From the IMG/VR virus record IMGVR_UViG_3300032668_000004, positions 1 to 64,000 of that record: a DNA stretch of 64,000 nt. The stretch is one strand, 5' to 3'. Source of the stretch: a virus. The notes below the pieces were generated by a model, which worked only from the letters and a program-made list of their open reading frames with translations, was not told where the DNA came from and ran no database searches. Position numbers and translations under genes: made by a program. Positions 29,317 to 52,292 of the stretch are shown here, in pieces (the stretch's first letter is position 1; every line of letters starts with the position of its first letter).

Positions 29317-29961
29317 ATGTGTATTTATTGTGGTACAAACAAGTACCGTAATATCTATGAACATCACTACGGTCCAATTCCTAAGGAAGAGTCGGGTCGG
29401 TCATATGAAATACATCATATAGACGGAAATCATTCCAATAATAATCCTGCTAACTTGAAATGTGTATCTATACAAGAACATTACAACATTCATTATTCAC
29501 AGGGTGATTGGGCAGCTTGTGTAAAAATGTCAAGTAGGATCAACTTACTTCCCGATGAGCTAGTAGCCCTCGCAACAAAAAATGCTAACAAGCTAGTTAA
29601 AACGGGCAAGCATCCTTGGGTTGGGCCCAACAAGCACCAAGCGCAACTAAACAGAGACCGCATTCTTAATGGAACACATAATTGGTTGGACAGGGAAGCT
29701 GCCAGTAAACGACAATTAAACAGACTTGCTGCCGGGACTCATCATTTTGTTAATGACCCCAAGAAAAAAGAAAAACATCCGCAGTATGACCATACTGTTA
29801 GAACTTGGAAAAATCGTATGACCGGGGAGGTAGTATCAATGACGAATTATCAATTAAGGACATGTTATAATCTCAAGTCCGGTGCAATTAGTCGTATTGT
29901 AAATAACAAAGGACTTAACGCTACTGGAGGGTGGGAACTAGTAAGACCTAGCCCCACTTGA
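29317..29961 (+). CDS. HNH homing endonuclease, on the plus strand
   Basis: 214 residues. HNH: YGPIPKEESGRSYEIHHIDG then NHSNNNPANL and QEHYNIHYSQGD in the first 65 residues. The middle has NUMOD-type repeats (NGTHNWLDREAASKRQ, AGTHHFVNDPK), and the C terminus has a DNA-binding NUMOD-like domain (MTNYQLRTCYNLKSGAISRI). It is the only clear plus-strand gene here, and inserted between two minus-strand genes, as expected for a mobile endonuclease. Its 3' end overlaps the next gene by 14 bases. Confidence 0.8.
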   Translation: MCIYCGTNKYRNIYEHHYGPIPKEESGRSYEIHHIDGNHSNNNPANLKCVSIQEHYNIHYSQGDWAACVKMSSRINLLPDELVALATKNANKLVKTGKHPWVGPNKHQAQLNRDRILNGTHNWLDREAASKRQLNRLAAGTHHFVNDPKKKEKHPQYDHTVRTWKNRMTGEVVSMTNYQLRTCYNLKSGAISRIVNNKGLNATGGWELVRPSPT

Positions 29962-36033: not shown

Positions 36034-36405
36034 TTAACGACTGCCGATTGGTTGTCCATTAACCGCAACAGATACGAGCGAGCCACCGTTCGTGCCATCC
36101 TTAAGAGGATGTACAACTACGACAGCCTTATCGCCGGACTTCAATGAAGTGCGCTTCCAACCGGAACGTGATAGACCATTTGGGCTACCGCCTTCGATTG
36201 ACCATTCAACTGGCTTACCAGAGGAATCAGTCACAATTAGTTGAATCCAAGAATGCGGATTAGTCCATTGAAATTCTTTTACTGTTCCTTCCAATGTCAC
36301 CGACTTTTGGTTGTCGAACATTGCGAACGAGTGGTGTGCGGATGCAGGTGCAGCCAAACTTAGTGCTACCAATGCAGCGATTGCAATAATTGACTTGTTT
36401 TTCAT
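36034..36405 (-). CDS. secreted DUF6152-like protein
   Basis: 123 residues from the ATG at 36405, preceded by a strong AGGAG. A Sec signal peptide is clear (MKNKSIIAIAALVALSLAAP, cleavage near ASA). The mature part starts HHSFAMFDNQKSVTLEGTVK and has EFQWTNPHSWIQL, VEWSIEGGSPNGLSRSGWKR and VVVHPLKDGTNGGSLVSV. This is typical of the bacterial DUF6152 family, periplasmic proteins of unknown function. I know of no phage version. A CATAAATAA late promoter precedes it. Confidence 0.7.
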   Translation of the reverse strand: MKNKSIIAIAALVALSLAAPASAHHSFAMFDNQKSVTLEGTVKEFQWTNPHSWIQLIVTDSSGKPVEWSIEGGSPNGLSRSGWKRTSLKSGDKAVVVVHPLKDGTNGGSLVSVAVNGQPIGSR

Positions 36406-36431
36406 GATTTGTTCTCCTAACATGTCAAAAT

Positions 36432-36440
36432 TATTTATGA
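36432..36440 (-). promoter_or_regulatory. late promoter of the DUF6152 gene
   Basis: The minus strand reads TCATAAATAA, 27 bases before the ATG at 36405, with AGGAG in the leader. A matching T4-type late promoter on a host-like gene shows it is integrated into phage expression. Confidence 0.5.
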
Positions 36441-36480
36441 CCTATAGGACGATATATCATATTTAAAGGTTTTATAGGTG

Positions 36481-36815
36481 CTAGTTGATTCTGTTTCGAG
36501 GCTCAACTAGCAAAGCCCAAAAGACTTATGCGGCTAACGCAAGGCCTTCATATGCATCATTTTCGTTTGCATTTAGTAATTTGAACTGATTGACGGTCGT
36601 TTCTTACCGTGTTCTCCACTTTCCTACTAGCCGTGAATCGATACTATACGCCCCCATAAGAAAACACACGATGCTCTCCCCGTCTTCTCGGCAGCTACCC
36701 CGATATCCCGCTTCACAGAGCCAGCGTCCTGTTATCGTGTGTTTACTGGTGGAGGCGAGGGGAATCGCACCCCTGTCTTCCCCGGTTTTAAGTCCGTATC
36801 AACGAACAAATACTA
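36481..36815 (-). ncRNA. ssrA: circularly permuted two-piece tmRNA
   Basis: On the minus strand the acceptor piece comes first: a T arm (AGGGG, loop, CCCCT), acceptor strand CGCCUCC and encoded ACCA ending at 36747. Then comes a 91-base spacer closed by an 11-bp stem (AAACACACGAT with ATCGTGTGTTT), and then the coding piece starting at 36655 with GGGGGCG, complementary over 7 of 7 bases to CGCCUCC. The tag frame 36526-36570 starts at GCA and reads ANENDAYEGLALAA then TAA. A 5-bp hairpin (ACGGT with ACCGT) before the tag may belong to PK1, and an 8-bp palindromic hairpin ends the piece. Outer ends are approximate. It tags and frees stalled ribosomes. Confidence 0.88.
36526..36570 (-). other. 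ssrA: tmRNA tag reading frame
   Basis: Fourteen codons plus TAA: ANENDAYEGLALAA. The hydrophobic LALAA end fits the ClpXP/ClpAP recognition motif of bacterial tags (consensus ALAA). The start is a GCA resume codon preceded by UAAAU, as in known tmRNAs. Confidence 0.85.
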
Positions 36816-36839
36816 TTTAATCATATATGACATTGCATG

Positions 36840-39380
36840 TCAACCGTATTTTTGCACGAAGCGTGATTTTAACCATTCCCACTCGTAGCTCAATCGCAGT
36901 GCATCAAAATCGCCATCAACTTCATCGTAATAGGCTTCTGCGTCTTTTGCACCCTTGATGCTATATTCTGCAAAATCACCTTCAGCTTTAGTAAGCCAAG
37001 CTTCTAATCGCTCTCGGGCAATGTCGGTATCTTCGGCCTTCAATTTGACCACTTCACGGAATGCGGTACGCCAAGTAGAGAACGGATCAGTGTTATAGTT
37101 TGCAGTACCGGACATGAGTGGAACAACTTCGTGCAGGTCATCCAACGTAAAGTCTAGTCCATAACCGTCATTCTCTAGCACTAATTGCTTATTATACGCG
37201 ATCATCGCTTGGTGACCGTAGATCAATCCATTGACCGGATTCTTCGCATGAAAGATATAATGCTTAGGTGCTTGCATTCGATCTGGTTGCCATGACCAAT
37301 CAAAATTAGAATTGATGTGTAACTTAGCGAATACCGTAAATAACCATGGTGTCTCGCTGGCTTCGGCAGCAGCATGATATGCAGCAACTCGACCATTAAC
37401 TCCATCCACTCTGACTACCCTATTTGGTATGTTTTTAGTAATTTGAAGTAGATGCTCCCAGTTTTTTTCGGCCCCGGCTTCACCGTTACTGAGATACACT
37501 ATGTCCATCGGTTTAGATTTGGTTAGTTTTTTTGCTCGCTTTATATACGGGTAATCATACAGTTCACTTTTGACATAGTTTTTAGCCTCGCGAGGAATCG
37601 TAACTCTAGTTGCACCTGTACTAGAAATAATGATTGCTTTCTGTTCGGGTGACCAAAGACACATAGGTTCGGGATCAATTTCAGGATCCATATCCCAGTT
37701 TTCTTCAGTTACTAGAGTTACATAAGGAAAATCCCATTCATAATTTCTAGCATAATCCATATGTGTTTCATTTGGAAAATATGCACCTTCGATAGTTGTG
37801 GGTGTCATCAATCTTGAGACAACTTGATGTTGATTATAATTAATCTTTTCATAGTCTTCTAGACGATGCATATCTGCTATCAATTTGCGCAGCTTGTTGA
37901 CGTTTACTAGAAACGTGTCTCCTAATTTTTGATTACCGCTCGGGAAGACGTGGAGTTGTTCTTTGGTGTACGGATCGCAGATATAGCTAAAATCAAATCT
38001 GCTATAATCACACACGCTACTACAAATCCATACATAATGTTCACGATTGACATCTAATTTACTGAGTACCTCCTTGAATGTTTTTAGATAATTGGTATCA
38101 TATTTCACAGCAATGATGTTTCTTTCGCTCAGATTTTTACTGAGTAGATCATCTTTTACTGTATCAACACCGTTACCATGGTCGATGATTACTATAGCAT
38201 AAAGACAATCAACTGCCTTAGCAGGTGATCGTTTTACAAAATTTATATTAGGCAAATGCTCAATGACTTTTATATATTTGGTATCATCAGCAAATGTATT
38301 TTTGTTAACCATAAAGGTTGTTCCCCAGTGTGACCACTGAGTTCCAAACACATGAACTAAGTTCATCTGCCATGGGCTAGGATAGAAATCAAACTCAAAT
38401 GACGAATAGTCTAATTCACTATTGAGAATCCAACATAGATTGGTAGTTGATTTAGTCACACAACGATTGATCGTGTCAACCCAGCTGTTCAGATATCTAG
38501 TTTTAGTTACGTTGCCCATACGCTCAGATAATTGCTGAAAGCGTTCTTGTGCCTGAGGATTTCCTTTATCGACAAAGAAAATATCGATCTTGGTTCGTAC
38601 ATCTAGTACCTTATCCTCAATGTAGTTAATGTCCCGATAACCACGTGCCCACATCTTACCATTAACAAAGTAAGTCTGGGAGTTTATATTGTCTTTCGTA
38701 CCAAATGCATTTATGTGATATACGTTCTTACTGTCAGGGACCCATTTAAAGTCAAACCCAGAATAATCAATTTCAGGATTCAATGCCCAAAAGATTTCAT
38801 TAGTGTGGTCGTTGATTAAATCTTCCAATGTAGTAGTGATGTAGTACTTCGAAAACTCTAGGTCTTCTAGTATGACCTCCTTGCGTTCTAGATGTACTAT
38901 GGTTCCGTCATTATAGGGAGTGACGTATCTGGGTCCGTCGTTTTCATCGAGCAGAGTACCGAATTGATATATGTATGGAGGAGACGTAGGATCTGGGTGC
39001 CAAGAAAAGTCAAACCTAGATTTATCCAGGGCCGGATCTATAATCCAAAAATCATTGATTTCATTCTTGCGTTGAATTGGGGGAACATCGGTTCGATAGA
39101 TAGTATAATCACCGGCTACCTTAGGACACAGCCATGTACCACTATCTTTTTGATGTTGGCTAGGCCATACATTGTCGTGTGCCTCTGCCCAAATATCTTC
39201 GTCAGGTAATAGCTCGAAATCAAAGTCCCAATCAAATTTACGGTAGTCACAAAACTCGTTGATAATCCAAAAATGCTCAGTCGTACACTGATTCCTAGCA
39301 TCTTCTAGTGATTCAGCAAATTTTTCTCTTGGATGGACATTGGGTTTGGAACCGGAGTAGAATACTTCTCTAATTGCCAT
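36840..39380 (-). CDS. large glycosyltransferase-like protein with six repeated modules
   Basis: 846 residues. A motif with pattern W-I/L-(N/D)...D-Y-S-x-F-(D/E)-F recurs at about residues 36, 112, 199, 314 and 455 (e.g. FWALNPEIDYSGFDFKW, LCWILNSELDYSSFEFDF), and a sixth variant NFDWSWQPD near 690. The C-terminal part from about residue 620 (MDIVYLSNGEAGAEKNWEHL, VVRVDGVNGRVAAYHAAAEA) is homologous to the gene at 52293. So it seems to be a chain of GT-A-like units, perhaps transferases for a phage-modified surface glycan. Function unproven. Confidence 0.55.
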   Translation of the reverse strand: MAIREVFYSGSKPNVHPREKFAESLEDARNQCTTEHFWIINEFCDYRKFDWDFDFELLPDEDIWAEAHDNVWPSQHQKDSGTWLCPKVAGDYTIYRTDVPPIQRKNEINDFWIIDPALDKSRFDFSWHPDPTSPPYIYQFGTLLDENDGPRYVTPYNDGTIVHLERKEVILEDLEFSKYYITTTLEDLINDHTNEIFWALNPEIDYSGFDFKWVPDSKNVYHINAFGTKDNINSQTYFVNGKMWARGYRDINYIEDKVLDVRTKIDIFFVDKGNPQAQERFQQLSERMGNVTKTRYLNSWVDTINRCVTKSTTNLCWILNSELDYSSFEFDFYPSPWQMNLVHVFGTQWSHWGTTFMVNKNTFADDTKYIKVIEHLPNINFVKRSPAKAVDCLYAIVIIDHGNGVDTVKDDLLSKNLSERNIIAVKYDTNYLKTFKEVLSKLDVNREHYVWICSSVCDYSRFDFSYICDPYTKEQLHVFPSGNQKLGDTFLVNVNKLRKLIADMHRLEDYEKINYNQHQVVSRLMTPTTIEGAYFPNETHMDYARNYEWDFPYVTLVTEENWDMDPEIDPEPMCLWSPEQKAIIISSTGATRVTIPREAKNYVKSELYDYPYIKRAKKLTKSKPMDIVYLSNGEAGAEKNWEHLLQITKNIPNRVVRVDGVNGRVAAYHAAAEASETPWLFTVFAKLHINSNFDWSWQPDRMQAPKHYIFHAKNPVNGLIYGHQAMIAYNKQLVLENDGYGLDFTLDDLHEVVPLMSGTANYNTDPFSTWRTAFREVVKLKAEDTDIARERLEAWLTKAEGDFAEYSIKGAKDAEAYYDEVDGDFDALRLSYEWEWLKSRFVQKYG

Positions 39381-39412: not shown

Positions 39413-40075
39413 TTATTTTAAGACCCTACACTTATCGAAATGGTATCGATGCATGTTAGTTTTTCCGCCAGTTTTGTTGCAATGCGGACAAGTTACCTGA
39501 ATTTTATTTGGATGATTCGTAAGAAAGTGGTGAGTTCCATTCTCTAACAATGTTTTCTGAACATTTCGTTGAAATTCTCCGTTCCCCATTAAATGATGAG
39601 TCCCGTTCTCCACCAACCTTTGTTGAGTTCTTCTTTGTATATCACCACTAAGAAAATGGTGAGTTCCTTCCCTCACTCGCTTAGCGTTAGATTTTCTTTG
39701 AACTTCTCCTCCAGAGAAAGCATTCGTCCCGTTTTCAGTTTGTCTGAGTACACTGTCTTTTCCTAACGATGACCCATCTGGCCTTTTTAAAAAGTGATGT
39801 GTGCCGTTTGCGATGCGGTTGGCGCCGGTTAATTTGGCGAGGTCTGATAGTTCCTCTGGCGTCAACCGTAGCTTTCTTGAAATGAGCCAACATGCACCAT
39901 AATCTCCTTGCTGATAATGAATATCGTAATGATCTTGTATAGACAATGCGATTAAATTTTCCGGTACATTATTATTGCGGTTACCATCTATATGATGAAC
40001 ATCGCAACTTCTTCCGTCACCGTCTTTGGGTATGGGACCAAAATTCTGTTCGTAAATTTTACGATAAATAGACAT
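39413..40075 (-). CDS. HNH homing endonuclease
   Basis: 220 residues from the ATG at 40075, chosen by AAGGAG and by alignment with the plus-strand paralogue (longer frame starts seven codons earlier). The HNH core is NFGPIPKDGDGRSCDVHHID then NRNNNVPENL and YDIHYQQGD. The middle has five repeats of about 24 residues (NGTHHFLK, NGTNAFSG, EGTHHFLS, NGTHHLMG, NGTHHFLT), a NUMOD-type array, and a C-terminal CPHCNKTGG...HRYHFDKC zinc finger. It lies between the repeat protein and the carbamoyltransferase. Confidence 0.8.
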   Translation of the reverse strand: MSIYRKIYEQNFGPIPKDGDGRSCDVHHIDGNRNNNVPENLIALSIQDHYDIHYQQGDYGACWLISRKLRLTPEELSDLAKLTGANRIANGTHHFLKRPDGSSLGKDSVLRQTENGTNAFSGGEVQRKSNAKRVREGTHHFLSGDIQRRTQQRLVENGTHHLMGNGEFQRNVQKTLLENGTHHFLTNHPNKIQVTCPHCNKTGGKTNMHRYHFDKCRVLK

Positions 40076-40100
40076 GCTGATAGCTCCTTCTAGCATTAGA

Positions 40101-40143: not shown

Positions 40144-41625
40144 TTAAGAGCAGACTTTTACCCCATATAGTAGCTGGAACCGATCAGCATCTGCCCGGTC
40201 ATTTACCATAGGCTCACCTCTAATATTTAGGGATGTATTAAGTAGCATTGGACAGCGTGTCTCATTATACCAACGTTCTAAGAGTCTTCTGATTCCCGAA
40301 CCGTCTTTCGGTACTGTCTGTACACGAGAAGTCCCGTCAGCGTGAACGATAGCAGGAAATAAGTCAGGAGCCCTACAAGGAGCGATGACTTGCATATACC
40401 TACTGTTGTTCCAACCGCAAGGCATATTAAAATAATCGCCACATAGTTCCTCCAGAATGACCGGCGCAAAGGGTCTGAACTGCTGTCTTCGCTTGATTTC
40501 ATTTACTGTATCCTTTATATCAGGGCCGCGTGGATCTGCTAATAGTGAACGATTGCCTAATGCTCTAGGACCGAATTCGGCTCGTCCGCTAGCAACACCA
40601 ACCATCTTCTTAGTATACAATTGGTTAATTACATTGTTAATAGGATATTTGCCTTTTATATTATATCCTAAAAAGGCATCGACCCAATTTACTCGTTTTC
40701 CATAACCTAATGCAGCAGCACCCAATGAGTTTCCTGCATCACCCGGATTAGGCATGATCCAGATGTTATCGAAGTATCCGCCTAGATTACGATTTGCTGC
40801 ACAGTTGAGTGCGACTCCTCCACCAAAAACAAGATTATGACTTTTACCGATATTAATAGCTTTTGCTATGACATGGTGTATCAAACTTTCAGTAAGTTCT
40901 TGAGTAGATGAAGCTATATCCATATTATCAGCATCTTTGAGGAAATCATCTCTCACCCCGGTATGTAGATTTTCTTTGAAAGATAATGTACCACTATTAT
41001 GAATCAACGCTTTTTGAATCGTATTAACATGAATAGGTTTACCGTAAGCAGCCATTCCCATAAGAATATATTCTTCATCTAATGGCTTCAGTCCTACTTT
41101 CGCAGTCATAGCAGAATAGAATAAACCGATAGAATCTGGATATTGCTTTCCCCAAAGCCTCTTATATACGGCTCTACCGTTATCATCATAATACGCATCC
41201 CAGATAGTAATCGTATCTAACTCGCCGATAGCATCAATAATGACTACAGTAGCATGGTCAAATGGACTAGTTTGAAAACCAGCAGCAGCATGAGATAAGT
41301 GATGATTGTGTGTTTTCACTTCTCCGTCATGGCTAAAACGAACCATCATGTTTTTACCGATGACATCCTTTGCAGAGAAAGGTCCTAACTTCTGTCCAGC
41401 TCTGAGCTGGCGGATTACCTTTAACCAAGGCTTCTCATAATAATGAAGCTCATAATGCCCATCTATATATTTGTGGGCATCTTTTAATAAGCCTAAACAA
41501 AGATCAGCGTCATGCTTCTTCTTACTGTATCGTTCACTGTGGCCGGCGTATAGGATATTGCCAGCATCATCAATGACACTCAATCCAGCGTCGTGAAACC
41601 CGCAACTGACACCTACATAATTCAT
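40144..41625 (-). CDS. NodU/CmcH-type carbamoyltransferase
   Basis: 493 residues. N-terminal ASKHA-fold domain with VSCGFHDAGLSVIDDAGN and HHLSHAAAGFQTSPFD, plus VFGGGVALNCAANRNL near 270; the C-terminal YrdC-like part has EFGPRALGNRSLLADPRG and LLNTSLNIRGEPMV. It transfers a carbamoyl group from carbamoyl phosphate via carbamoyl-AMP to a hydroxyl, on sugars, antibiotics or, in some phages, modified bases. The substrate here is unknown; the nearby sugar genes suggest a glycan. Confidence 0.88.
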   Translation of the reverse strand: MNYVGVSCGFHDAGLSVIDDAGNILYAGHSERYSKKKHDADLCLGLLKDAHKYIDGHYELHYYEKPWLKVIRQLRAGQKLGPFSAKDVIGKNMMVRFSHDGEVKTHNHHLSHAAAGFQTSPFDHATVVIIDAIGELDTITIWDAYYDDNGRAVYKRLWGKQYPDSIGLFYSAMTAKVGLKPLDEEYILMGMAAYGKPIHVNTIQKALIHNSGTLSFKENLHTGVRDDFLKDADNMDIASSTQELTESLIHHVIAKAINIGKSHNLVFGGGVALNCAANRNLGGYFDNIWIMPNPGDAGNSLGAAALGYGKRVNWVDAFLGYNIKGKYPINNVINQLYTKKMVGVASGRAEFGPRALGNRSLLADPRGPDIKDTVNEIKRRQQFRPFAPVILEELCGDYFNMPCGWNNSRYMQVIAPCRAPDLFPAIVHADGTSRVQTVPKDGSGIRRLLERWYNETRCPMLLNTSLNIRGEPMVNDRADADRFQLLYGVKVCS

Positions 41626-41629
41626 GCTA

Positions 41630-41731
41630 TTATTTGTATATAAAGGGATCTCTTTTTCTTAGTTCTTTAATCCTTTTTCTATATAGAATCTCACGTTTAA
41701 TCTTATTGATTAATGTTCTTATAAAATGCAT
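41630..41731 (-). CDS. 33-residue basic peptide
   Basis: A short frame (ATG 41731 to TAA 41630) preceded by AAGGG. It reads MHFIRTLINKIKREILYRKR followed by IKELRKRDPFIYK, strongly basic and probably helical. The ending RKRDPFIYK recurs, as I recall, in small peptides of marine phage sugar gene clusters. Function unknown. Confidence 0.55.
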   Translation of the reverse strand: MHFIRTLINKIKREILYRKRIKELRKRDPFIYK

Positions 41732-41756
41732 TGTTATTCCCTTATCATTAAATCTA

Positions 41757-42761
41757 TTAATGGTATCCTAATCTATATTCATCTAAAATAGAAAACAATC
41801 GGTCTTGTAATAGTGCTTTATATTCTCGCATATCTATTACTTGTTTTAATTCTTTACAACATGGATGTTCGAATAGATAGTGTGCTGAACTGATAAAGCG
41901 GTCTTTGTCATTATCTACATCAACCGTACACCATTTTTTATAATATCCTGATTCTATCACAACATCAATGAACTTAGTTAATTCTTTTGTACCCAAACCC
42001 AATGTATATAACACACTACTAGCTACAGTACCGAGTTGCGGAGCAATATTTAATGCATCCACTCCTGTATTTTTACGTAACTTTACTTGGTCAACTGTAA
42101 GGTAGTCAGCGTTGTGTTCTTTGAACATGTAACCATTCTGATGTATTACATTTATCAGTTTTTGTGTTTGTTCTACATTGAACGTACCTACTTGAGTTTG
42201 TTTAGTCAAGCTTCCAGTCTGGGAAACAATATAACATATATTATTTTGCCAAGGCTTGACATACTCTAGTTGCATATTCAACATGTTCAAGGTTTCTGTC
42301 GTATTACCAGTGTTGTCTTCGGTACCGAATTCAAACATAATTTTCGGATTCAATGCCATAGCATAAGAAAACAACTTTTCTGCAACAGCACGTTGTTTGT
42401 CAGTCTCGACTCTGCTCACGTCAATATGAATTAGGTAGAATTTTGCATCGACATCAGCTTTGATCGTATTCATGCATCGTTCTATTACCGTTTCGAGGTC
42501 TAGATTTTTGTCTGCATCACTAAAGTAAGGTCCGCAGTGGTCTCTACACAGCAATATTCTATCTCGGTCATAATACTCACTATTGAATACTAGGTCAGAT
42601 AGTTCTTTAGTGTTCATAGCATAGCCACTATCATAGTCTACTTGATTGCGACTAGCAATAATCATTAGTGGATAGTCGTTCTGATGACTATAGCTGAGAC
42701 ATAGCTCAACTATTTCTTTGCTCATCGGACCTATACCTAAATTAAATCGTTTCAAGTCCAT
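41757..42761 (-). CDS. GatZ/KbaZ-like class II aldolase
   Basis: 334 residues, TIM-barrel type. Motifs LMIIASRNQVDYDSGYAMN, ILLCRDHCGPYFSD near residue 90, IMFEFGTEDNTGNTTETL and a C-terminal KEHNADYLTVDQV. The DHCGPYF core is a signature of the GatZ/KbaZ family (tagatose-bisphosphate aldolase subunit) and sugar-phosphate relatives. It may form or cut a sugar phosphate feeding the nearby nucleotidyltransferase. Confidence 0.6.
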   Translation of the reverse strand: MDLKRFNLGIGPMSKEIVELCLSYSHQNDYPLMIIASRNQVDYDSGYAMNTKELSDLVFNSEYYDRDRILLCRDHCGPYFSDADKNLDLETVIERCMNTIKADVDAKFYLIHIDVSRVETDKQRAVAEKLFSYAMALNPKIMFEFGTEDNTGNTTETLNMLNMQLEYVKPWQNNICYIVSQTGSLTKQTQVGTFNVEQTQKLINVIHQNGYMFKEHNADYLTVDQVKLRKNTGVDALNIAPQLGTVASSVLYTLGLGTKELTKFIDVVIESGYYKKWCTVDVDNDKDRFISSAHYLFEHPCCKELKQVIDMREYKALLQDRLFSILDEYRLGYH

Positions 42762-42781
42762 CGATCATTCTTTCATATAGA

Positions 42782-43273
42782 TTATAGTTGGCGCCACCAC
42801 CAACCTTTGATCATCTTTTCAATATATAAACATGCATCAAGAACTGCGCCGCTAGCAGCATCACTCGGTGTCACATACTTAGCACTAGTTCTCGCTTCAA
42901 TTCTAGCACTCTTAGGTGCGATGCCTAGAGCTACTTTTTTTAATATAACAGCATCATGATATCCATCTGCGATATATGCGGTTGTGTTGAAATTACAATT
43001 TTCTATAAACCATTCTAGTCTAGATTCTTCCGGAACTAAGACTAACTGATCATCCCGATACTTCCAATCAGTGACAATTCTTGCGTAAGTGATGTCAAAT
43101 CCAGTCTTATCCGCAGTAATAAAAGTGATATCATTTATATACTTACTGATCAGCTTGAGACCATCTCTGTCATGCGGTCCGAAAACTTTAAAAGTTTTGC
43201 CTAAATTGTTGTACAGCATGTGTCCGGATGTTAATACACCATCAACATCGATAATGAGTTTATCTATAATCAT
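42782..43273 (-). CDS. KdsC-like HAD phosphatase
   Basis: 163 residues from the ATG at 43273, chosen because AGGA lies ahead of it and the family begins just there (MIIDKLIIDVDGVLTSG). HAD motif I is DVDGVLT, motif II FITADKTG, and ADGYHDAVILKK holds motifs III/IV. Related KdsC enzymes remove phosphate from KDO-8-phosphate; the substrate here is unknown. It overlaps the AroE-like gene. Confidence 0.72.
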   Translation of the reverse strand: MIIDKLIIDVDGVLTSGHMLYNNLGKTFKVFGPHDRDGLKLISKYINDITFITADKTGFDITYARIVTDWKYRDDQLVLVPEESRLEWFIENCNFNTTAYIADGYHDAVILKKVALGIAPKSARIEARTSAKYVTPSDAASGAVLDACLYIEKMIKGWWWRQL

Positions 43274-44018
43274 TTCCTGTAGCCTCGTTAAATTGATCAA
43301 TCGTGATATGCATACCAGTATATATCTCAAACTGCTTTAGAAATTGATGGGCATAAAAACTCAGACCACTTATATACTTTACTTGACTCTGCAAACTTTG
43401 TTCATATAAAATAGTTTTACGTAGTGCTAGATCAATTACGCATCTTGTTTTATCAGGAACTGATAGCAATGGTGATGCCTCTTCACTCGTCCCTAAACTA
43501 GTACAATTGATTATAATGTCAGCCGGTTCATGTCTGTCATGCCAGTTGTTGTTTTTTCTGCTATACATATTGACATTCATATAATCGTTTTCGATGAGAT
43601 AATGATAGAACATCTGTCCTATCGATCCGTCACCTAGTATCAAAATCTTATCATCGATTGAAATCTCAGATATGATACCCATCAATCCGTATATGTCACA
43701 ATTGTAGCCAACGGTATGTCCATTATTCACAGCTATGGTATTGCAAATACCATACTTATGTGCTAGACTATCTAGATTATCACACAGATAAGTTACAGTG
43801 TTCTTATATGGCATACTCACGCTAATACCATATGTAGTATGATCGCTTGTTAAGTGCTTGAAAGTATCTTCGAACTCGTTTGGATTACAAGCTAAAGCCG
43901 TATAGGTTGCGTCAATGCCAAACTTATCAAAAAACAAATTGTAGTAATAAGTTCCGGTTTTGCCAGGATATTGACTTAGACTATAAAACTGCTTCATTGC
44001 TAGAGTATTTAGTTTCAT
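43260..44018 (-). CDS. shikimate dehydrogenase-like protein
   Basis: 252 residues. Substrate-binding side: GISVSMPYKNTV near residue 65, CNTIAVNNGHTVGYNCDIYG near 93. NAD(P) site: ILILGDGSIGQMFYHYL near 125, and INCTSLGTS near 172. The Lys of the 'SVSMPYK' motif is the shikimate dehydrogenase catalytic residue. It is unusual for a phage and, given the cluster, probably reduces a cyclic ketone other than shikimate. An ATG at 43997 is an alternative start. Confidence 0.72.
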   Translation of the reverse strand: MKLNTLAMKQFYSLSQYPGKTGTYYYNLFFDKFGIDATYTALACNPNEFEDTFKHLTSDHTTYGISVSMPYKNTVTYLCDNLDSLAHKYGICNTIAVNNGHTVGYNCDIYGLMGIISEISIDDKILILGDGSIGQMFYHYLIENDYMNVNMYSRKNNNWHDRHEPADIIINCTSLGTSEEASPLLSVPDKTRCVIDLALRKTILYEQSLQSQVKYISGLSFYAHQFLKQFEIYTGMHITIDQFNEATGNDYR

Positions 44019-45540
44019 ACTCTTGGAACAATTTTATACCTAAGTACCAGAGAAATTTGTCGAAGGGACTAGTATGTAATGGAGACATATTCCAAAATAT
44101 AATAGGAATCAATAATTCCACTTTCTTCCACTCTAACTGTTTTTCATTCACAAACTTTTTTAATAGGGTGAAATACTGTTCGTGGTTATCTATATAAGGA
44201 ATCTCTAAAGTAACATGATTGTTTTTAATATCAACCTTGAAGTTGTTCTCTTTGATCTTACTATAATTTATGATGAATCCGCCGGCGAGTTTTGCTAAGT
44301 CATAATATATGTCGCCGGTGTTGGTATTACCTGCAAAATCAGGGCGCCAATCGATGAGCTTGAAGTCTTTACCTATTACGATATTATCAAACTGCAAATC
44401 ACCGTGTATATAAGATGCTTGCACTGTCTCAGTAAGATAAGAATAGTCGATGTTGTTTAGGTAATATGCATAGTCCTTTACGTCAACACCGTTAATACTG
44501 CTAACCTTTTCTTGTGTGTTATACTTGGTCAAGTATTTTTCGATCCTACCTAATGTCTTATTTTTATAAAATTCTATGCATTCATCTTTGATGTCAACAT
44601 CAGCCCGGTGCCAGACATTATTGTCTAACCAATTCAATAGACTATTGAAATGCTCAACATCATTGTGTTGGTATAATGTTTTTCCTGAATACCAATCGTA
44701 TGCTAGATAGTTGCCAACAATCTTGCAATTGTCGGGATATATTCCATCATGATCTAGCGTTCGTTTATATTTGTTCTCAGTGATAGTTTTATTCGCCCAC
44801 CATTTGATAACTTTAGAATCGGTTATGTAGGTGATCTCATCTTCTTTACTAAAGTCAAATTTTTGGCTGCTATTAACTGCATTCGCATAACTCTCTATAT
44901 TGCCAAAATCGATCCAACTGTCTAGGTTAACAATAGACTCACCTTTTTCTATAACAAAGATAAACTCATTATTGTTTAGTTCGGTTAACCGGGTGATGAA
45001 ATCTACATGATCACCTAGATACATCACGCCAGTAAAAGCAACATAATCAGCAGGGCAGTGTTCTTTAAACACCATATCAGTGATCGTCAAGTTGTCTAAT
45101 TTGAACATAGTGTATAGGTCAGATAAATCTTCACTTACCTGTTTAGTGAAATAGTAGTTTTTACTTGTATCTTTGATCTCTGATATCAAGTCTGTATCGA
45201 AATAAGTGTCACACGGTATGTACCAGAATGGTTTATCTAATAGGTTAGTACATTTTTTCAGTGTGTAGGCAGTACCACTCCGACTAGAGGTATAGTCATC
45301 GATATCAACAAATGTGATATTTACATCATCATGTGCTACTGTGCAATAGTCTTTAACCTGCTGGCTCAGATAACCAACAGGAATGATGAAGTGCGTGTCT
45401 TTGGGAAACTGATCTATTATGTGTGATAGAAACGGTTTATTCTTGTAGGGCAACAGTGCTTTGTTTAGATTCTTAGTCAGATTGCCCATCCTAGAGCCTA
45501 TACCGGCTGTAGGTATAACTACTGTGTTAACGGTGCTCAT
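43981..45540 (-). CDS. nucleotidyltransferase fused to a choline-kinase-like domain
   Basis: 519 residues from the ATG at 45540. N-terminal 220 residues: GT-A nucleotidyltransferase with VVIPTAGIGSRMGNLTKNLN, KALLPYKNKP and WYIPCDTYFD. C-terminal part: APH/choline kinase fold with ASYIHGDLQFDNIVIGKD near residue 400 and LIDWRPDFAGNTNTGDIYYD. The pair would activate and phosphorylate a sugar or polyol. An upstream ATG in the same frame would add 11 residues. The fusion is rare. Confidence 0.75.
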   Translation of the reverse strand: MSTVNTVVIPTAGIGSRMGNLTKNLNKALLPYKNKPFLSHIIDQFPKDTHFIIPVGYLSQQVKDYCTVAHDDVNITFVDIDDYTSSRSGTAYTLKKCTNLLDKPFWYIPCDTYFDTDLISEIKDTSKNYYFTKQVSEDLSDLYTMFKLDNLTITDMVFKEHCPADYVAFTGVMYLGDHVDFITRLTELNNNEFIFVIEKGESIVNLDSWIDFGNIESYANAVNSSQKFDFSKEDEITYITDSKVIKWWANKTITENKYKRTLDHDGIYPDNCKIVGNYLAYDWYSGKTLYQHNDVEHFNSLLNWLDNNVWHRADVDIKDECIEFYKNKTLGRIEKYLTKYNTQEKVSSINGVDVKDYAYYLNNIDYSYLTETVQASYIHGDLQFDNIVIGKDFKLIDWRPDFAGNTNTGDIYYDLAKLAGGFIINYSKIKENNFKVDIKNNHVTLEIPYIDNHEQYFTLLKKFVNEKQLEWKKVELLIPIIFWNMSPLHTSPFDKFLWYLGIKLFQEYETKYSSNEAVL

Positions 45541-45976
45541 GCTGTATTCTACCGTGCGTTCTATTTTGATCATCCTGAAGCCTTATCACATCATCAAGTT
45601 CTGTTGTACTTGCTTCAAAGAATTCAAGGTCTGTAATAGCAACGACACGGTGAACATAGCCCGGATGAACGTCGAATGATACTCCAGGTTCAAGTCGAAT
45701 GATATCAAACGTTGATTCGTATTCAGAAACTTCTTCTGCGGTCATCGGGTTAGATAGAAAATGTTCTACATCAAATTTTTCTTTGCTTATGTACAATGTT
45801 CCTGTACCGGAAAAAACATAGTTGGTTTCGAATTTTTGTTGATGTACTTGCAAGCTTGTTCTATTGCCAGCCTTGAAGAATATACGCTTTAGTGCATATG
45901 GTGTCCTGACACCATCTGCTATCCAGACTTCATGACCCCAGTGCTTGACTACAGTTTTGATTTCATTTATACTCAT
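45527..45976 (-). CDS. cupin, phosphomannose-isomerase-type
   Basis: 149 residues. The double-stranded beta-helix shows KAGNRTSLQVHQQKFETNYV (metal His) and EPGVSFDVHPGYVHRVVAIT. This is like the cupin domain of type II mannose-6-phosphate isomerase/ManC. It likely isomerises a sugar phosphate used by the fused transferase next to it. It overlaps that gene by 14 bases. Confidence 0.72.
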   Translation of the reverse strand: MSINEIKTVVKHWGHEVWIADGVRTPYALKRIFFKAGNRTSLQVHQQKFETNYVFSGTGTLYISKEKFDVEHFLSNPMTAEEVSEYESTFDIIRLEPGVSFDVHPGYVHRVVAITDLEFFEASTTELDDVIRLQDDQNRTHGRIQHEHR

Positions 45977-45977
45977 G

Positions 45978-46859
45978 TCAAATATTTAGTAACTCATGAT
46001 CTTGTATGTATTTTAATAATTCATCAGCCCAAACAGTATGACCTAGTTCATTTGGATGCCAGCCAGTATATCCAGCTTCTCCGCAGTTTTCATCTACATA
46101 TGTCTTGAATGAATTATTAGTGATGTCTTTGTTATAGTACCTAATACTATCTATCGTTTTCCATATAGTGTTATAGTTTATTTTATGAATGATACGGACA
46201 TCATCATCTGATATACTGATATTACCTAAACCTAAAGAGTTTATCTGTTCTTCAACATTGATGTCTTGCCACTGATCGATATTAATCTGATTCAATCTAT
46301 AAAAAGCATTGAAGTTTAAGAATCTGATTTTATTCGTTAGGCAAAAATTCTGGAAGTTCAATATTGTAGTAATATACCTAGTAATGTATTCTTCAGGATT
46401 CCAAAAATTCAATACATATGTTTTAGTAAGATTGGCTAATGGTTTTTGTTTATGATCAGTCATGTGCGGATTGAGCCTAAACTTGTAGCTTTCTTTGTCA
46501 TCATCACTCTTGTACCAAAAATCTCTGCGTTCCGGCGTAGTCCAACCTACTATGATAAACAGACGATCCGGGTTTATACCTTGGTTTAGTAGGTGCAAAA
46601 CATATTCTTGCGTCCTAGCTAAGATACTAGCATTATCATCTCCGGGTTCAGCTAGGTTTATCACACGACATCTCAATAGTTCTGCTAGCTTAGTTGGCCA
46701 TATCCGCGGTAATCTATAACTATCATTCTTAGGAAGATAGTCGATAGTAGTCAGATGATTACCTGGATGTTTTTGTACTAAAGCAGGATCTACTATCTCA
46801 CACCCGAACGTCCAGCTATCACCGTTCGTTATCAAAATCAATTCATCAGGTGTAGCCAT
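45978..46859 (-). CDS. SGNH/GDSL-type hydrolase 1
   Basis: 293 residues. Block I is TNGDSWTFGCE (GDS near residue 13), and block V is GYTGWHPNELGHTVWADELL near 275 with the His of the D/W-H pair. Central motif FIIVGWTTPERRDF. Likely an esterase or acyl-transferase on a glycan; first of three tandem paralogues. Confidence 0.65.
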   Translation of the reverse strand: MATPDELILITNGDSWTFGCEIVDPALVQKHPGNHLTTIDYLPKNDSYRLPRIWPTKLAELLRCRVINLAEPGDDNASILARTQEYVLHLLNQGINPDRLFIIVGWTTPERRDFWYKSDDDKESYKFRLNPHMTDHKQKPLANLTKTYVLNFWNPEEYITRYITTILNFQNFCLTNKIRFLNFNAFYRLNQINIDQWQDINVEEQINSLGLGNISISDDDVRIIHKINYNTIWKTIDSIRYYNKDITNNSFKTYVDENCGEAGYTGWHPNELGHTVWADELLKYIQDHELLNI

Positions 46860-47649
46860 TCTCTAATAACCTTTCAATTATCAACTGTGCAGTATATTCA
46901 TGTGCTGGATAATCTGCATGCTGACTTCCTATAGTATCAGGATATTGTAGAGTCAGCTCTCCCCAATTATGATGTATCAAATCTTTTTTAGGTATCAGAT
47001 CATCGAACTTATCGTCACTTGCAAGCACTAAGCAATGTATATCACTGTTTGTTATTCTAGTGTATGCAGACAGTATCAACCCTCTATCATAATCAGATTT
47101 GATATTATTGTTAGACCAAACAGTTAGATAATGTTCTAATAACATTTTTAGTTTTTCAGGTGATTGTGAATGTAGACGTTGGTAATAATCGCTAGGCATT
47201 TTCTTTTGTTTTTCTAATGTCTGTAGATAATCAGGTATCGCCCCGACCTGCTCAGTGAGCAACTTTGGATTATAGCTTGCATCATCTTTTAGATAAAAAT
47301 CTAACGGTCGATCATGATGCGGTTGTGCATGATGATGCGGCGGATACTGATGGTAGTTCAAATGTGATAGGTCTAATGTTATATGCTTTTGAAATTCGTC
47401 TTCTAACCATTCGATCCTATCATAACTAGTTACACATAAAATAACGCACTTTGGTTTGGACAGCATCTTACTAGCATATACACCTTGGAGGAATACTGCA
47501 TAATTAGACGCACTGCCCCTAGCTAATACGACCAAATCATATTCTAACTTATCTGCGACAAGTTGACCATACCGTTGTTTTTCCATATCAACTAGTCCAA
47601 TGCCGACATTGAAACTATCACCGCACACCACGATCTTTTCTTTATTCAT
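46846..47649 (-). CDS. SGNH/GDSL-type hydrolase 2
   Basis: 267 residues. Block I is VVCGDSFNVGIGLVDME (GDS near 9); the C-terminal block is SQHADYPAHEYTAQLI with His. It overlaps hydrolase 1 by 14 bases and hydrolase 3 by eight. Same module order as its neighbours. Substrate unknown. Confidence 0.62.
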   Translation of the reverse strand: MNKEKIVVCGDSFNVGIGLVDMEKQRYGQLVADKLEYDLVVLARGSASNYAVFLQGVYASKMLSKPKCVILCVTSYDRIEWLEDEFQKHITLDLSHLNYHQYPPHHHAQPHHDRPLDFYLKDDASYNPKLLTEQVGAIPDYLQTLEKQKKMPSDYYQRLHSQSPEKLKMLLEHYLTVWSNNNIKSDYDRGLILSAYTRITNSDIHCLVLASDDKFDDLIPKKDLIHHNWGELTLQYPDTIGSQHADYPAHEYTAQLIIERLLENGYT

Positions 47650-48436
47650 AGATGTTATTAAACTCCTGATATAAATGCTCTGCCCATCTTCTGTGACCTT
47701 CTATCATAGTATGATGATCAGCAGCCATTGGAATTTGATTAGCTACGCAAAAAAGACTCATCACATTTAATGATTCATCACATGAACGTGTATTCAGAAT
47801 GCATGGTTTCTGCAATACTGAAATTTCTTGTTCAAATTGTTTTGATATATTAATTTTTTTATATTCCGGTAACCATACTGTTCGCCACGGCAGACTACTA
47901 AAAAACAAGTACTTTACACCTAAGTTTTCTAATAGATTTTTCATAATATACATTTCTTGAAAAAATCTGATGTAATTGGCACGAAGTGAATATACATTCA
48001 AAATATAGTCTTTCTGCCAGTCATCAATAAGTTTTAAATAATCATTACTAAAGTCAGGTCTAAAGAGTACATCATGCGAACTTACCGGCTGCGTAGCATT
48101 AAACATACACCACCCCTCTTTCTGTCCTTCGTGTAAATAGACTTCACTCCTATCTACAGTTGTCCAGCCTAACATAACTACTAATGAACTATATTTTTCT
48201 TTAGGATACTTTCGTAGAAAGTCACATGTAGTTCTAACCATACGTGCATTGCTTCCTGCACCAAGAGCTTCATTTATATGATCAACTCCAAACTTTTCTG
48301 CGACTACCGACGGCCAGGCACATTTCAAAAAATAGTTCCATCTTTCTATTAATGGTATGTTTGATAAGCTCGGATCATCATCGATACCGTTTCCTGCTGT
48401 CCAGCTACATCCGTTAGCATATAAAAAATCAATCAT
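47642..48436 (-). CDS. SGNH-like protein 3
   Basis: 264 residues. Block I is YANGCSWTAGNGIDDD, where the Asp of GDS is Cys (GCS), and the end has HHTMIEGHRRWAEHLYQ with the His. Central VVMLGWTTVDRSEVYL matches the first paralogue. The GCS change may mean altered or lost hydrolysis. Overlaps both neighbours slightly. Confidence 0.58.
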   Translation of the reverse strand: MIDFLYANGCSWTAGNGIDDDPSLSNIPLIERWNYFLKCAWPSVVAEKFGVDHINEALGAGSNARMVRTTCDFLRKYPKEKYSSLVVMLGWTTVDRSEVYLHEGQKEGWCMFNATQPVSSHDVLFRPDFSNDYLKLIDDWQKDYILNVYSLRANYIRFFQEMYIMKNLLENLGVKYLFFSSLPWRTVWLPEYKKINISKQFEQEISVLQKPCILNTRSCDESLNVMSLFCVANQIPMAADHHTMIEGHRRWAEHLYQEFNNIYE

Positions 48437-49257
48437 CTTATTGTTCCGTATAATTTATTCTCATTGTTATCCCGAAAAACCTTATATATTTCTTCTTCTG
48501 ATATAGAACTATAATGTATTAAATCATTCATAAAACACTCACGAAAATTTGTCATAGGATCAAACATATAAGACTCATAACGATATATCGTGTAACAAAC
48601 TAAATTAGTTTTGCTCAATGGTTGATTTATAATTCCCCTATTTTGTAAAAATCTGTTTAATGCAGCAGATGAATCATGCACTGAGTGTCCAGGCTCTTTG
48701 ACCAGATCAATCATAATATCAGCAACATTGCTGTTTGTAACCCAAAAAACATCAGCTAATATATTATCACAGTGCGGGTCACTATAAATCGTCGATTTGG
48801 ATAAGTCTATGTTAGATAGCTCACTTCCAAAGTTTTTAGCTGTAGGAAATATAACATCAGGACGGATCTTTATGACTACATCATATTTAAAATTGTTCTC
48901 TATCTCGTACTGCCTTTAAAGCTCAAAGCTTCTACAAAGAGTATGCCATACTATAGGAAATTGGTTATTAGTCATATGACTATTCATGAACTCTGAATAA
49001 CTATCTACTTTGTATCTTATCGGATTATATAATTCGATAAATTTCTGTAATTTTTCTTGAGATAAGGCTTCATCCGGGCGTTGAATAAATCGAATATTAT
49101 TCCAATGTGTTCTAGCAAACGGTTTATTAGTTTCATAATCCCAGGTGTGCAGGAAAAAATCACAATCCGGCAGCATATCTCCTAAGTAACGGGTGATGTT
49201 AACATAACAGTTTATCCCTGTTCTGATCAATCCACTGAAACACACAGCAATCTTCAT
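48433..49257 (-). pseudogene. glycosyltransferase interrupted by one in-frame TAA
   Basis: One frame of 275 codons, whose N terminus MKIAVCFSGLIRTGINCYVN and FFLHTWDYETNKPFAR matches the two next genes (KIAVCLSGEPRTW, RVALCISGQPRTW). It has a single TAA at 48916-48918, after CRSFEL; the paralogue reads LKRQYEIEHNF while this one continues RQYEIENNFKYDVVIKI. An AAA to TAA change explains it. After the stop the frame runs open to 48433. Inactive, or a sequencing error. Confidence 0.7.
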
Positions 49258-50120
49258 CTGAATAGATTTCTTTCTACTTGTAGTATTGCATCTGCGTCTT
49301 GCGGTAAACTATACAATTCTGCTGCCTTTTTCCTAAATATATAAGTGTTAAATATTAGGTTTGTTTCTTGTACTCTTATATTCTTTAGCATAAGCCATTT
49401 ATATAAGCAGACATTATATCCGCATATTTTTATATAAGGATCATTCCAGTTAGCATCTAATAATTCCCAGAATTTACCTGTACTATAGTATCTATAAAAA
49501 TCACAAACAGTATTCATCACCCTACTTGAACCGAAGAATAACACATCAGTAAAATGATTCTGCCAATATTCCATCGGGAATGTATTTGTCGAACCATATA
49601 TTGCAGTTGGTTCTATTCTACCTGGTAAGTAATCCTCAAACTTTGTACCCGGTGTATAATAACTATCATGCCTTGCTCTGACAACTAGATCAAAACGCAT
49701 GTCATTTTCTATTTCATACATAGTTTTGAGCCAGTTAGCCTGCATGATACTGTAGCTCATGTGAACGTATACTGTAGGTTTAGCTAGGTTAGCTGCTACT
49801 TTCATACCAAAAGTACATTCATCAAAACTTAATACGCTTGGTATCGGAGTGACATCGATTACAGTTTTATCTTCGATCAATAATTTTTCGTAGTTTATAG
49901 CTGATATCATATTCTGGTATAGCTCGTCCTTAGGATAAGATTCACATTTCTCTATACCATAAAATCTATGTTCTTTCGTGTATTCACTGTCTGTCCACGT
50001 GTGTCCAAAAAACTTTATGTCATGGATATCACTCTTGAAAAATTCAAGTATATTCTCGCTACAATGGTTCCATGTGCGAGGCTCTCCGCTCAGACACACT
50101 GCTATTTTATATGACTTCAT
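49254..50120 (-). CDS. glycosyltransferase-like protein
   Basis: 288 residues. N terminus YKIAVCLSGEPRTWNHCSEN, HDIKFFGHTWTD, then YEIENDMRFDLVVRARHDSY as in the neighbouring genes. The central Asp/His region RARHDSYYTPG is in the place where GT-A enzymes keep DxD. It is one of three paralogues in a row. Acts probably in glycan synthesis. Confidence 0.62.
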   Translation of the reverse strand: MKSYKIAVCLSGEPRTWNHCSENILEFFKSDIHDIKFFGHTWTDSEYTKEHRFYGIEKCESYPKDELYQNMISAINYEKLLIEDKTVIDVTPIPSVLSFDECTFGMKVAANLAKPTVYVHMSYSIMQANWLKTMYEIENDMRFDLVVRARHDSYYTPGTKFEDYLPGRIEPTAIYGSTNTFPMEYWQNHFTDVLFFGSSRVMNTVCDFYRYYSTGKFWELLDANWNDPYIKICGYNVCLYKWLMLKNIRVQETNLIFNTYIFRKKAAELYSLPQDADAILQVERNLFR

Positions 50121-50892
50121 ATGATGCTAACTCTTTCTTGATATCAAGATATTCTTGGCTTCTCAATATCTTTATACTCTGAGGACAACTGACGTTTTTT
50201 ATTCCACTAGCACATAAAAAAGGATATAGTGCAACTTCCGGCGCCGGCGGGGGACATTGTATGTGCGGGGGCACCACATGATTACTATCGATAAACTGCA
50301 ATGAATGAATAAATTCTGCTGCTTGGTCATACGTATAGCTATCAGCAAAATGAAACGTGTCACCGATCATAAATGATTCTACATTATCCACGTATCCGTT
50401 GCTCTTAGAATATAAACAGTTGGGACGAACTTCACGGGGCATGTTTAGATTTTCCATGAAGTATAGATCAGTCCGCATCCTAAACACAACATCATATTCG
50501 AAGTTGTGTTCGATCTCATATTGTCGTTTTAGATTAGCAGCATAATATATACTATAATACTGGCTTCTACACCACCATCCTATCGGATTATTCACATACT
50601 CAGTTAGTATACTAGGATCTTTGTCGAACAGTGTTGGATTGACATTTCTATTATCAAACTTGTATTTCTTTGGCTGATATGTATCTATGATATCTTGTTT
50701 TTCTTCTTCAGTGATATGTACGTCTTTGAGGGAACGGACACCAGACTGTAATACTATCGTAGGTAAAGTATTATAATCCCATAGATGAAAGAAAATATCT
50801 TTCTCTACATTAGGTAACAAATGTTCTATCCAATTTGAATATGTCTTTTTCCATGTCCTCGGCTGACCACTTATGCATAGTGCTACACGCAT
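50107..50892 (-). CDS. glycosyltransferase-like protein
   Basis: 261 residues from the ATG at 50892 (MRVALCISGQPRTW), five codons into the longest frame. Contains RQYEIEHNFEYDVVFRMRTD and MIGDTFHFADSY; RMRTDLYF may serve as the DxD-like site. It shares sequence and order with the two neighbouring genes, so tandem duplication is clear. Confidence 0.65.
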   Translation of the reverse strand: MRVALCISGQPRTWKKTYSNWIEHLLPNVEKDIFFHLWDYNTLPTIVLQSGVRSLKDVHITEEEKQDIIDTYQPKKYKFDNRNVNPTLFDKDPSILTEYVNNPIGWWCRSQYYSIYYAANLKRQYEIEHNFEYDVVFRMRTDLYFMENLNMPREVRPNCLYSKSNGYVDNVESFMIGDTFHFADSYTYDQAAEFIHSLQFIDSNHVVPPHIQCPPPAPEVALYPFLCASGIKNVSCPQSIKILRSQEYLDIKKELASYEVI

Positions 50893-52289: not shown

Positions 52290-52292
52290 ATT

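Follow-up and report, generated by a model that had tools for sequence, protein, structure and literature searches.

A circularly permuted two-piece tmRNA gene in a large T4-like phage and its viral relatives

The minus-strand gene at 36840-36435 in the DNA analysed here is a genuine phage gene for a circularly permuted, two-piece tmRNA. The DNA is a stretch of 64,000 nucleotides (the window) from an IMG/VR virus record of 181,278 bases, in which such a gene had been predicted from the letters at 36481-36815. ARAGORN called a permuted tmRNA with tag ANENDAYEGLALAA close to that interval, and two Rfam models, tmRNA_permuted (RF04321; 113.8 bits, cut-off 47, E 2e-21) and alpha_tmRNA (RF01849; 78.2 bits, cut-off 50, E 1.6e-19), matched the window. 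The covariance models and ARAGORN, both named in the original prediction as ways to check it, thus bear out the two-piece permuted tmRNA. A tRNA or a chance match is ruled out, since no tRNA was called and the model scores lie far over the cut-offs. The best explanation, which we consider very probable, is a phage-owned tmRNA of the alphaproteobacterial two-piece type that belongs to a phage-borne lineage and is not a recent capture from a host. The features are as follows.

36435-36840, minus strand: whole permuted tmRNA gene (ARAGORN)
36526-36808, minus strand: match to RF04321 (Rfam, 113.8 bits)
36480-36847, minus strand: match to RF01849 (Rfam, 78.2 bits)
36747-36808, minus strand: acceptor piece; 3' end predicted at 36747, 5' end approximate
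36774-36758, minus strand: T arm AGGGG-UGCGAUU-CCCCU, loop UGCGAUU (read from the sequence)
36757-36751, minus strand: 3' acceptor strand CGCCUCC (read from the sequence)
36750-36747, minus strand: ACCA, that is A73 and CCA (read from the sequence)
36656-36746, minus strand: spacer of 91 nt, presumably removed from the precursor (read from the sequence)
36734-36744, minus strand: 5' arm of the 11-bp spacer stem, AAACACACGAT (inverted repeat)
36662-36672, minus strand: 3' arm of the 11-bp spacer stem, ATCGTGTGTTT (inverted repeat)
36649-36655, minus strand: 5' acceptor strand GGGGGCG, with which the coding piece is predicted to begin (36655)
36526-36570, minus strand: tag reading frame ANENDAYEGLALAA (36570-36529) and stop (36528-36526)
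36479-36512, minus strand: 10-bp hairpin close to the end of the coding piece (inverted repeat)
36815-36843, minus strand: candidate promoter TTGACA-N17-TTAAAT (weak evidence alone)

As predicted, the acceptor piece is encoded before the coding piece (T arm at 36774-36758, coding start at 36655), and the spacer between them, 36746-36656, has exactly the 91 bases claimed for it. The acceptor piece contains a hairpin (GUUCG..CGGAC), the T arm, the 3' acceptor strand and an encoded A73-CCA. GGGGGCG and CGCCUCC do form the proposed seven-pair acceptor stem, though the pairing is not perfect, because six Watson-Crick pairs are joined by a G-U wobble at the third pair. This is the position of the G3-U70 alanine identity pair, and a wobble there is expected of a tmRNA. 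The tag frame reads as had been stated, and resume codon, frame, stop and a hydrophobic Ala-Ala end are all present, both by reading the sequence and by ARAGORN. The 11-bp stem at the spacer ends was also found as described, with AAACACACGAT (36744-36734) pairing with ATCGTGTGTTT (36672-36662); none of 100 spacer shuffles attained 11 bp. The mature RNA ends are predicted at 36747 and 36655.

The phage setting is equally clear. The window encodes a T4-type terminase, UvsX, a single-strand binding protein, an RNA ligase/tail-fibre catalyst, helicases, thymidylate synthase and tail proteins, and the genome is that of a large T4-like myophage. Contamination of the record with cellular DNA is ruled out, as phage genes flank the tmRNA on both sides. 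The terminase has its nearest matches in Sinorhizobium phage Phosso (50.2% over 98%), in Pseudomonas phage PA5oct and related phages (49.0% over 99%) and in Agrobacterium phage Atu_ph07 (52.4% over 81%). Among the terminase relatives, RF04321 matches in Phosso and finds nothing in PA5oct, Vibrio 2.275.O, Atu_ph07 and GAP32. In Phosso, the nearest full-length terminase relative, the tmRNA differs from the window's in its host-type T loop, its acceptor stem and its 410-nt spacer; phage backbone and tmRNA therefore travel separately there. A 258,859-base record (L069) is identical to the window's phage over all 8,711 bases compared and was treated as the same phage, and two further loci (L162 and L183) are identical to the window over the 175 nt of tmRNA compared. 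The alpha-type tmRNA would point to an alphaproteobacterial host.

The 181,278-base record has zero tRNA matches and the 258,859-base record four. No SmpB was found in the 181,278-base record, nor in any of 11 records with a permuted tmRNA (two of them the same phage, the 258,859-base record included), by a search that detected SmpB in 10 of 14 known genomes used as a control. The phage tmRNA therefore probably relies on the SmpB of the host. SmpB may lie outside the 181,278-base record, which is possibly a fragment, yet the 258,859-base record is also without it.

The genes beside the tmRNA have features of their own. Directly downstream, 36034-36423 (minus strand) encodes a 129-aa protein with, by eye, a signal-peptide-like start and a strong match to DUF6152 (4e-39). 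DUF6152 is a family known from bacteria, and the protein is odd cargo for a phage. Directly upstream, 36840-39380 (minus strand) encodes an 846-aa protein that looks repetitive by eye and has no match in Pfam, PHROGs or phage records. Two HNH endonuclease genes, 39413-40096 (minus strand) and 29317-29961 (plus strand), belong to the same PHROG, 12324, with 80% and 71% identity in two short stretches, of 88 and 100 bases, that lie within or next to them. A region of low GC (0.36-0.38) at 40144-53234 (minus strand) carries genes for a NodU-like carbamoyltransferase, a GatZ/KbaZ-like aldolase and a shikimate dehydrogenase domain, together with a weak nucleotidyltransferase match, DUF6071 and radical SAM genes; judged from these matches, the set perhaps serves surface-sugar synthesis.

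Two-piece tmRNA in phages is already known as a kind, and the gene in the window adds one phage to it. Excerpts of PMC9004378 report tmRNA in 402 of 18,146 phage genomes, with 133 unique structures of which 53 are two-piece, and describe a two-piece tmRNA in phage Melnitz. PMC11915505, the source of RF04321 and of a tmRNA database with 11,946 permuted sequences, lists 79 bacteriophage tmRNA sequences of all forms, and excerpts of PMC5648845 and PMC11242549 place a tmRNA in a Sphingobium phage and in a Sinorhizobium phage. Each of three pattern scans of IMG/VR gave at least 120 matches, some of which are not permuted tmRNA. The statement that a phage copy is uncommon was thus too strong. One of the patterns, GGGNNCGRNNCCCNNCGCCTCCACCA, occurs in at least 120 stretches; with the matches listed, loci L001-L003 and the window taken together (124 rows), ARAGORN called 62 permuted and 15 one-piece tmRNAs and left 47 uncalled. 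RF04321 scored over the cut-off in all 17 records picked from the matches, which is not a rate. One of the 17, a very large virus record of 607,744 bases (L021), combines a permuted tmRNA (102.5 bits) with 56 tRNA matches. Eight named records, phiCbK, CcrColossus, CcrBL10, RBC57, Ccr29, BL57, RcRudolph and Phosso, contain a permuted tmRNA and no tmRNA annotation; that of CcrBL10 was found by dissection of the sequence only, with no call by ARAGORN. Queries with two bacterial tmRNAs matched no phage record.

The T loop of the window's tmRNA, UGCGAUU, differs from the GGCRG type that prevails in alphaproteobacterial chromosomal genes. A looser pattern matched in 103 of 385 alphaproteobacterial genomes, where the loop is GGCGGTA or GGCGGAA in 97, TTCGA in four (possibly tRNAs) and TGCGA in two, one of these being the genome on which the sample was centred because of its TGCGA. 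Among the first 30 alphaproteobacterial genomes that the pattern did not match, RF04321 scored over the cut-off in 26, with 25 GGCRG loops, one other loop and no UGCRA. One further relaxed bacterial pattern had many chance matches and was left out of the counts. For viruses we used a pattern that leaves most of the T loop open, taking 107 of the 120 listed stretches; the 80 permuted tmRNAs among these listed matches include 22 with UGCRA and 47 with a host-type loop. UGCRA is more frequent in the viral set, among the matches listed (22/80 versus 2/129 alphaproteobacterial; Fisher p 1e-8, relatedness ignored), in a comparison biased by a bacterial pattern that could not match UGCAA loops. Counting UGCGA only gives 9/80 (matches listed) versus 2/129 (p 0.003, relatedness ignored), and setting UGCRA in the viral matches listed against the model-sampled genomes gives 22/80 versus 0/26 (p 0.0015, relatedness ignored).

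A second pattern, GGGTGCGANNCCCNNCGCCTCCACCA, occurs in at least 120 viral stretches of IMG/VR. The matches listed, with L001-L003 and the window, make 124 rows, of which 92 were called permuted by ARAGORN, 23 more have a coding-piece start that pairs and 9 have neither. The same pattern occurs in 44 stretches of genome_contigs (84,980 species), comprising 6 permuted, 30 one-piece and 8 uncalled. All six permuted tmRNAs come from alphaproteobacteria by title, have the UGCGA loop and are the only one in their genome. We rejected the UGCGA loop as a hallmark of phage tmRNA, given these six genomes and the 47 of 80 viral tmRNAs with a host-type loop.

The enrichment of UGCRA among the viral matches is what one would expect if the tmRNA were a counter-measure that makes up for host tmRNA lost in the phage takeover or through RNA-cutting host defences, its altered T loop and tag giving resistance. 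The 47 host-type loops in the same sample indicate that an altered loop is not required, and we regard this explanation as unlikely. The T arm also bears on another possible origin, in which a host tmRNA gene was copied recently and accidentally, by imprecise excision or through an attachment site, and is kept by chance and unused. The match to the alpha-type model above its cut-off speaks for such a copy, and for Melnitz an excerpt of PMC9004378 considers that genes were exchanged with a prophage. However, every conserved part of the window's gene is intact, and its 28-letter pattern from T arm to CCA, with one position left free, has no match in the 84,980 species of genome_contigs.

The tree of tmRNAs weighs further against a recent copy. 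It comprises 239 tmRNAs (179 viral, 56 bacterial, three from named phages, and the window's), with acceptor and coding piece joined. The viral rows are those of 271 loci that could be dissected uniquely and were non-identical, with L069 set aside as the same phage; the bacterial rows are 56 of 96 loci, many having been dropped as repeats of one place or chance matches. The bacterial loci for the tree, spacer and promoter counts are from alphaproteobacteria only, and the 44 genome_contigs loci were left out. With the T-loop letters removed, the window's tmRNA falls in a 10-row set (support 100/99), and within it in a 6-row set (support 99/82), whose other rows are all viral, in a tree that has at most 189 columns, a bootstrap that had not settled and some long branches that meet. 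Label changes number 10 for viral and 8 for bacterial rows, versus 53.8 and 50.7 with shuffled labels. With the T loop kept, in a quicker search, the smallest supported set holding the window has 14 rows (11 viral, two named and the window). The two named phages, phiCbK and CcrColossus, leave the window's clade when the T-loop letters are removed; the UGC loop occurs in 97 of the 179 viral rows, partly because one pattern selected for UGC. A recent copy from the host, whichever species that is, should carry a GGCRG loop and sit close to bacterial genes. The window's tmRNA has UGCGAUU and groups with viral rows, not with the 56 bacterial ones, and we consider an accidental copy very unlikely.

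The spacer is the second feature that sets the viral genes apart. Its median length is 78 in the 179 viral genes versus 32 in the 56 bacterial (alphaproteobacterial) ones. In the viral set, the opening bases of the spacer pair with a stretch that ends four bases before the coding piece, and pairing in that register makes the spacer stem an extension of the acceptor helix beyond the CCA. The 11-bp stem of the window's gene lies in this register. Six or more Watson-Crick pairs in it were found in 104 of 145 viral spacers of at least 25 nt, versus 6 of 38 bacterial ones (Fisher p 6e-10, relatedness ignored), and in any other register from 0 to 10 only 0 to 2 viral spacers have that many. In spacers of at least 40 nt, the best end stem beats shuffles (p <=0.05) in 98/123 viral and 5/16 bacterial cases. 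The viral excess thus persists among long spacers, and length alone does not explain the difference between viral and bacterial genes. Across 118 distinct viral spacers, ten positions of the stem are 87.8% paired, with 4 to 6 pair types per position, although the first is paired in only 60%; slid registers give 35 to 59%, and arms swapped between sequences 57.3% (maximum 60.8% in 500 trials). Bacterial spacers, where the helix is weak, are 54.4% paired versus 40.8% when swapped. The viral spacer stem thus shows strong covariation in one exact register.

UGAU directly precedes the coding piece in 108 of 179 viral genes and all three named phages, versus 3 of 56 bacterial genes; in the window UUAU stands there, which ranks second among the viral forms and first among the bacterial ones. 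On paper, UGAU could form pairs with A73, C75 and A76, with C74 facing an A as a mismatch. Isolates read after the rule had been stated have the stem in register in Melnitz (9 bp), RcRudolph (8 bp, with UGCU before the coding piece) and CcrBL10 (7 bp). RBC57, Ccr29 and BL57 share their stem with phiCbK, and CcrBL10 is a relative of CcrColossus, so that these are no independent tests. Phosso breaks the rule, having UGAU and only 2 bp in register 4. MT836065 (14-nt spacer, 3 bp in register, no ARAGORN call) and LT996079 (called one-piece by ARAGORN) do not support it. The Phosso tmRNA (L257 / PV764938.1, 349596-350198, minus strand) has a spacer far longer than most and was missed by ARAGORN. 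The spacer helix could already be described in the founding papers on two-piece tmRNA.

The third difference lies upstream of the genes. We take TATAAATA to be the T4 late promoter consensus. It occurs within 60 bases upstream of 88 of 179 viral genes, 0 of 55 bacterial genes (one of the 56 was dropped for want of upstream sequence) and 35 of 6,696 background stretches drawn from the viral loci themselves. The combination TTGACH-N15..18-TATAAATA is found in 49/179 viral genes, 0/6,696 background stretches and 0/55 bacterial genes, and plain TTGACH-N16..18-TANNNT in 17/179, 76/6,696 and 0/55. The T4 late promoter is given as TATAAAT in an excerpt of PMC9004378. The late-promoter motifs in many viral relatives, lacking in the bacterial genes, also argue against an accidental host copy. 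The window and the three named phages belong to none of the three promoter classes, and the window is without an exact TATAAATA; for the window's gene this, like its UUAU, weighs against the phage-borne reading. A looser arrangement, TTGACH, 16-18 bases, then TA and any four letters, is present in 87/179 viral genes, the window and the three named phages, and in 0/55 bacterial genes, the only set with which it was compared.

The window's candidate promoter, TTGACA-N17-TTAAAT at 36815-36843, contains a TTAAATA that resembles TATAAATA in degenerate form. It agrees with the consensus at 10 of 12 letters (p 0.035, 200 shuffles) and is the sole match with at most one mismatch in 64 kb, where chance gives a mean of 0.87 and 61 of 100 shuffles have at least one. 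Its location just before the gene makes it a candidate, though in 64 kb it does not go beyond chance. A generic promoter and terminator scan found nothing at the tmRNA gene; it would miss this candidate because the scanner needs an A at position 2 of the second hexamer. A palindrome, TGACAT-GCA-ATGTCA (36828-36842), overlaps the -35 box of the candidate promoter and is a possible operator.

Clade, spacer helix and late-like promoters together suggest phage-adapted rather than freshly captured tmRNAs. We tentatively propose, as a reading that may well prove wrong, that phage two-piece tmRNAs form a phage-adapted class passed among phages, often with combined early/late phage promoters (TTGAC-N15..18-TATAAATA) and with a spacer helix in one register. 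The CCA would then lie opposite the conserved UGAU, in a shared folding signal that is only weakly present in bacteria and that would set the timing of processing by host enzymes in infected cells, or protect it. The three comparative results are strong leads to phage-adapted lineages rather than proof, since they come from viral-labelled metagenomic contigs, patterns that fix part of the acceptor, bacteria that are alphaproteobacteria only, and related sequences.

For the window's gene, we envisage that the candidate promoter just upstream transcribes a precursor whose folded-back spacer would unite acceptor stem and spacer stem in one long interrupted helix. Host tRNA-processing enzymes would excise the spacer, as described for the family, and leave an acceptor RNA and a coding RNA joined by base pairing; an excerpt of PMC3985003 names RNase P and tRNase Z as the probable enzymes for two-piece precursors. 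With its G-U pair and CCA, the tmRNA could be charged by the host alanyl-tRNA synthetase, and host SmpB would deliver it to ribosomes that have stalled on broken or non-stop messages, where tag and stop could be used. The stalled protein would receive a tag ending in ALAA, an ending recognised by ATP-dependent proteases (PMC3985003, in excerpt). By analogy with its family the gene could, as the original prediction suggested, keep translation running or label proteins for proteolysis during infection. The most likely benefit would be free ribosomes and cleared protein fragments while phage mRNA dominates, at a time when host tmRNA may be diluted or degraded.

The tmRNA might instead serve as a weapon, tagging chosen or bulk host proteins for breakdown, or titrating host SmpB and thereby disabling rescue in the host. 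An excerpt of PMC9004378 proposes that host proteins are tagged selectively, and phage DS6A has a tag-less tmRNA domain resembling a tmRNA inhibitor that perhaps titrates SmpB (PMC4131195 and PMC11915505, in excerpt). The complete tag frame, stop and ALAA end of the window's tmRNA would be needless for pure titration, however, and no feature for choosing targets was seen in its sequence, which makes this use improbable. We keep to ribosome rescue by a phage-owned tmRNA as the likeliest use. The comparison matters more than one added phage gene: should lineages, promoters and a precursor fold specific to phage tmRNAs be borne out, many large phages would have retained and tuned their control of ribosome rescue.

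Isolated phages with the gene, phiCbK on Caulobacter and Melnitz on OM43, make the idea testable. Melnitz (MZ577097, PMC9004378) resembles the window's phage in its permuted tmRNA, which is annotated in its record, in the register of its spacer stem and in a TTGACA-N17 followed by a -10-like site upstream. It differs in its host-type T loop (GGCAGUA), 142-nt spacer, UGAU and tag (ANDNYVPVDYALAA); a glutamine riboswitch is reported for Melnitz in an excerpt of PMC9004378, and Rfam finds none in the window. Alphaproteobacterial chromosomal two-piece tmRNAs (RF01849) share with the window's the order of the pieces, the acceptor G-U and the Ala-Ala tag end. That of Caulobacter was reportedly described by Keiler et al. 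in 2000. The tmRNAs of Bxz1 and Bacillus phage G are one-piece. Phage-borne tmRNA in Bacillus phage G and in mycobacteriophages such as Bxz1 is noted in an excerpt of PMC4131195.

The Caulobacter phages phiCbK and CcrColossus match the window in 34/36 and 35/36 letters of T arm and acceptor, with RF04321 scores of 71.4 and 83.8 bits, spacers of 94 and 81 nt, and stems of 11 and 10 bp in the same register. Unlike the window they have UGAU before the coding piece, the tag of phiCbK differs, and the two phages have 25 and 30 tRNA matches, versus none in the window's 181,278-base record. The phiCbK record also holds, at L003:479-965 (minus strand), an unannotated match to GOLLD RNA (165.3 bits, cut-off 150) around a tRNA-Gly.
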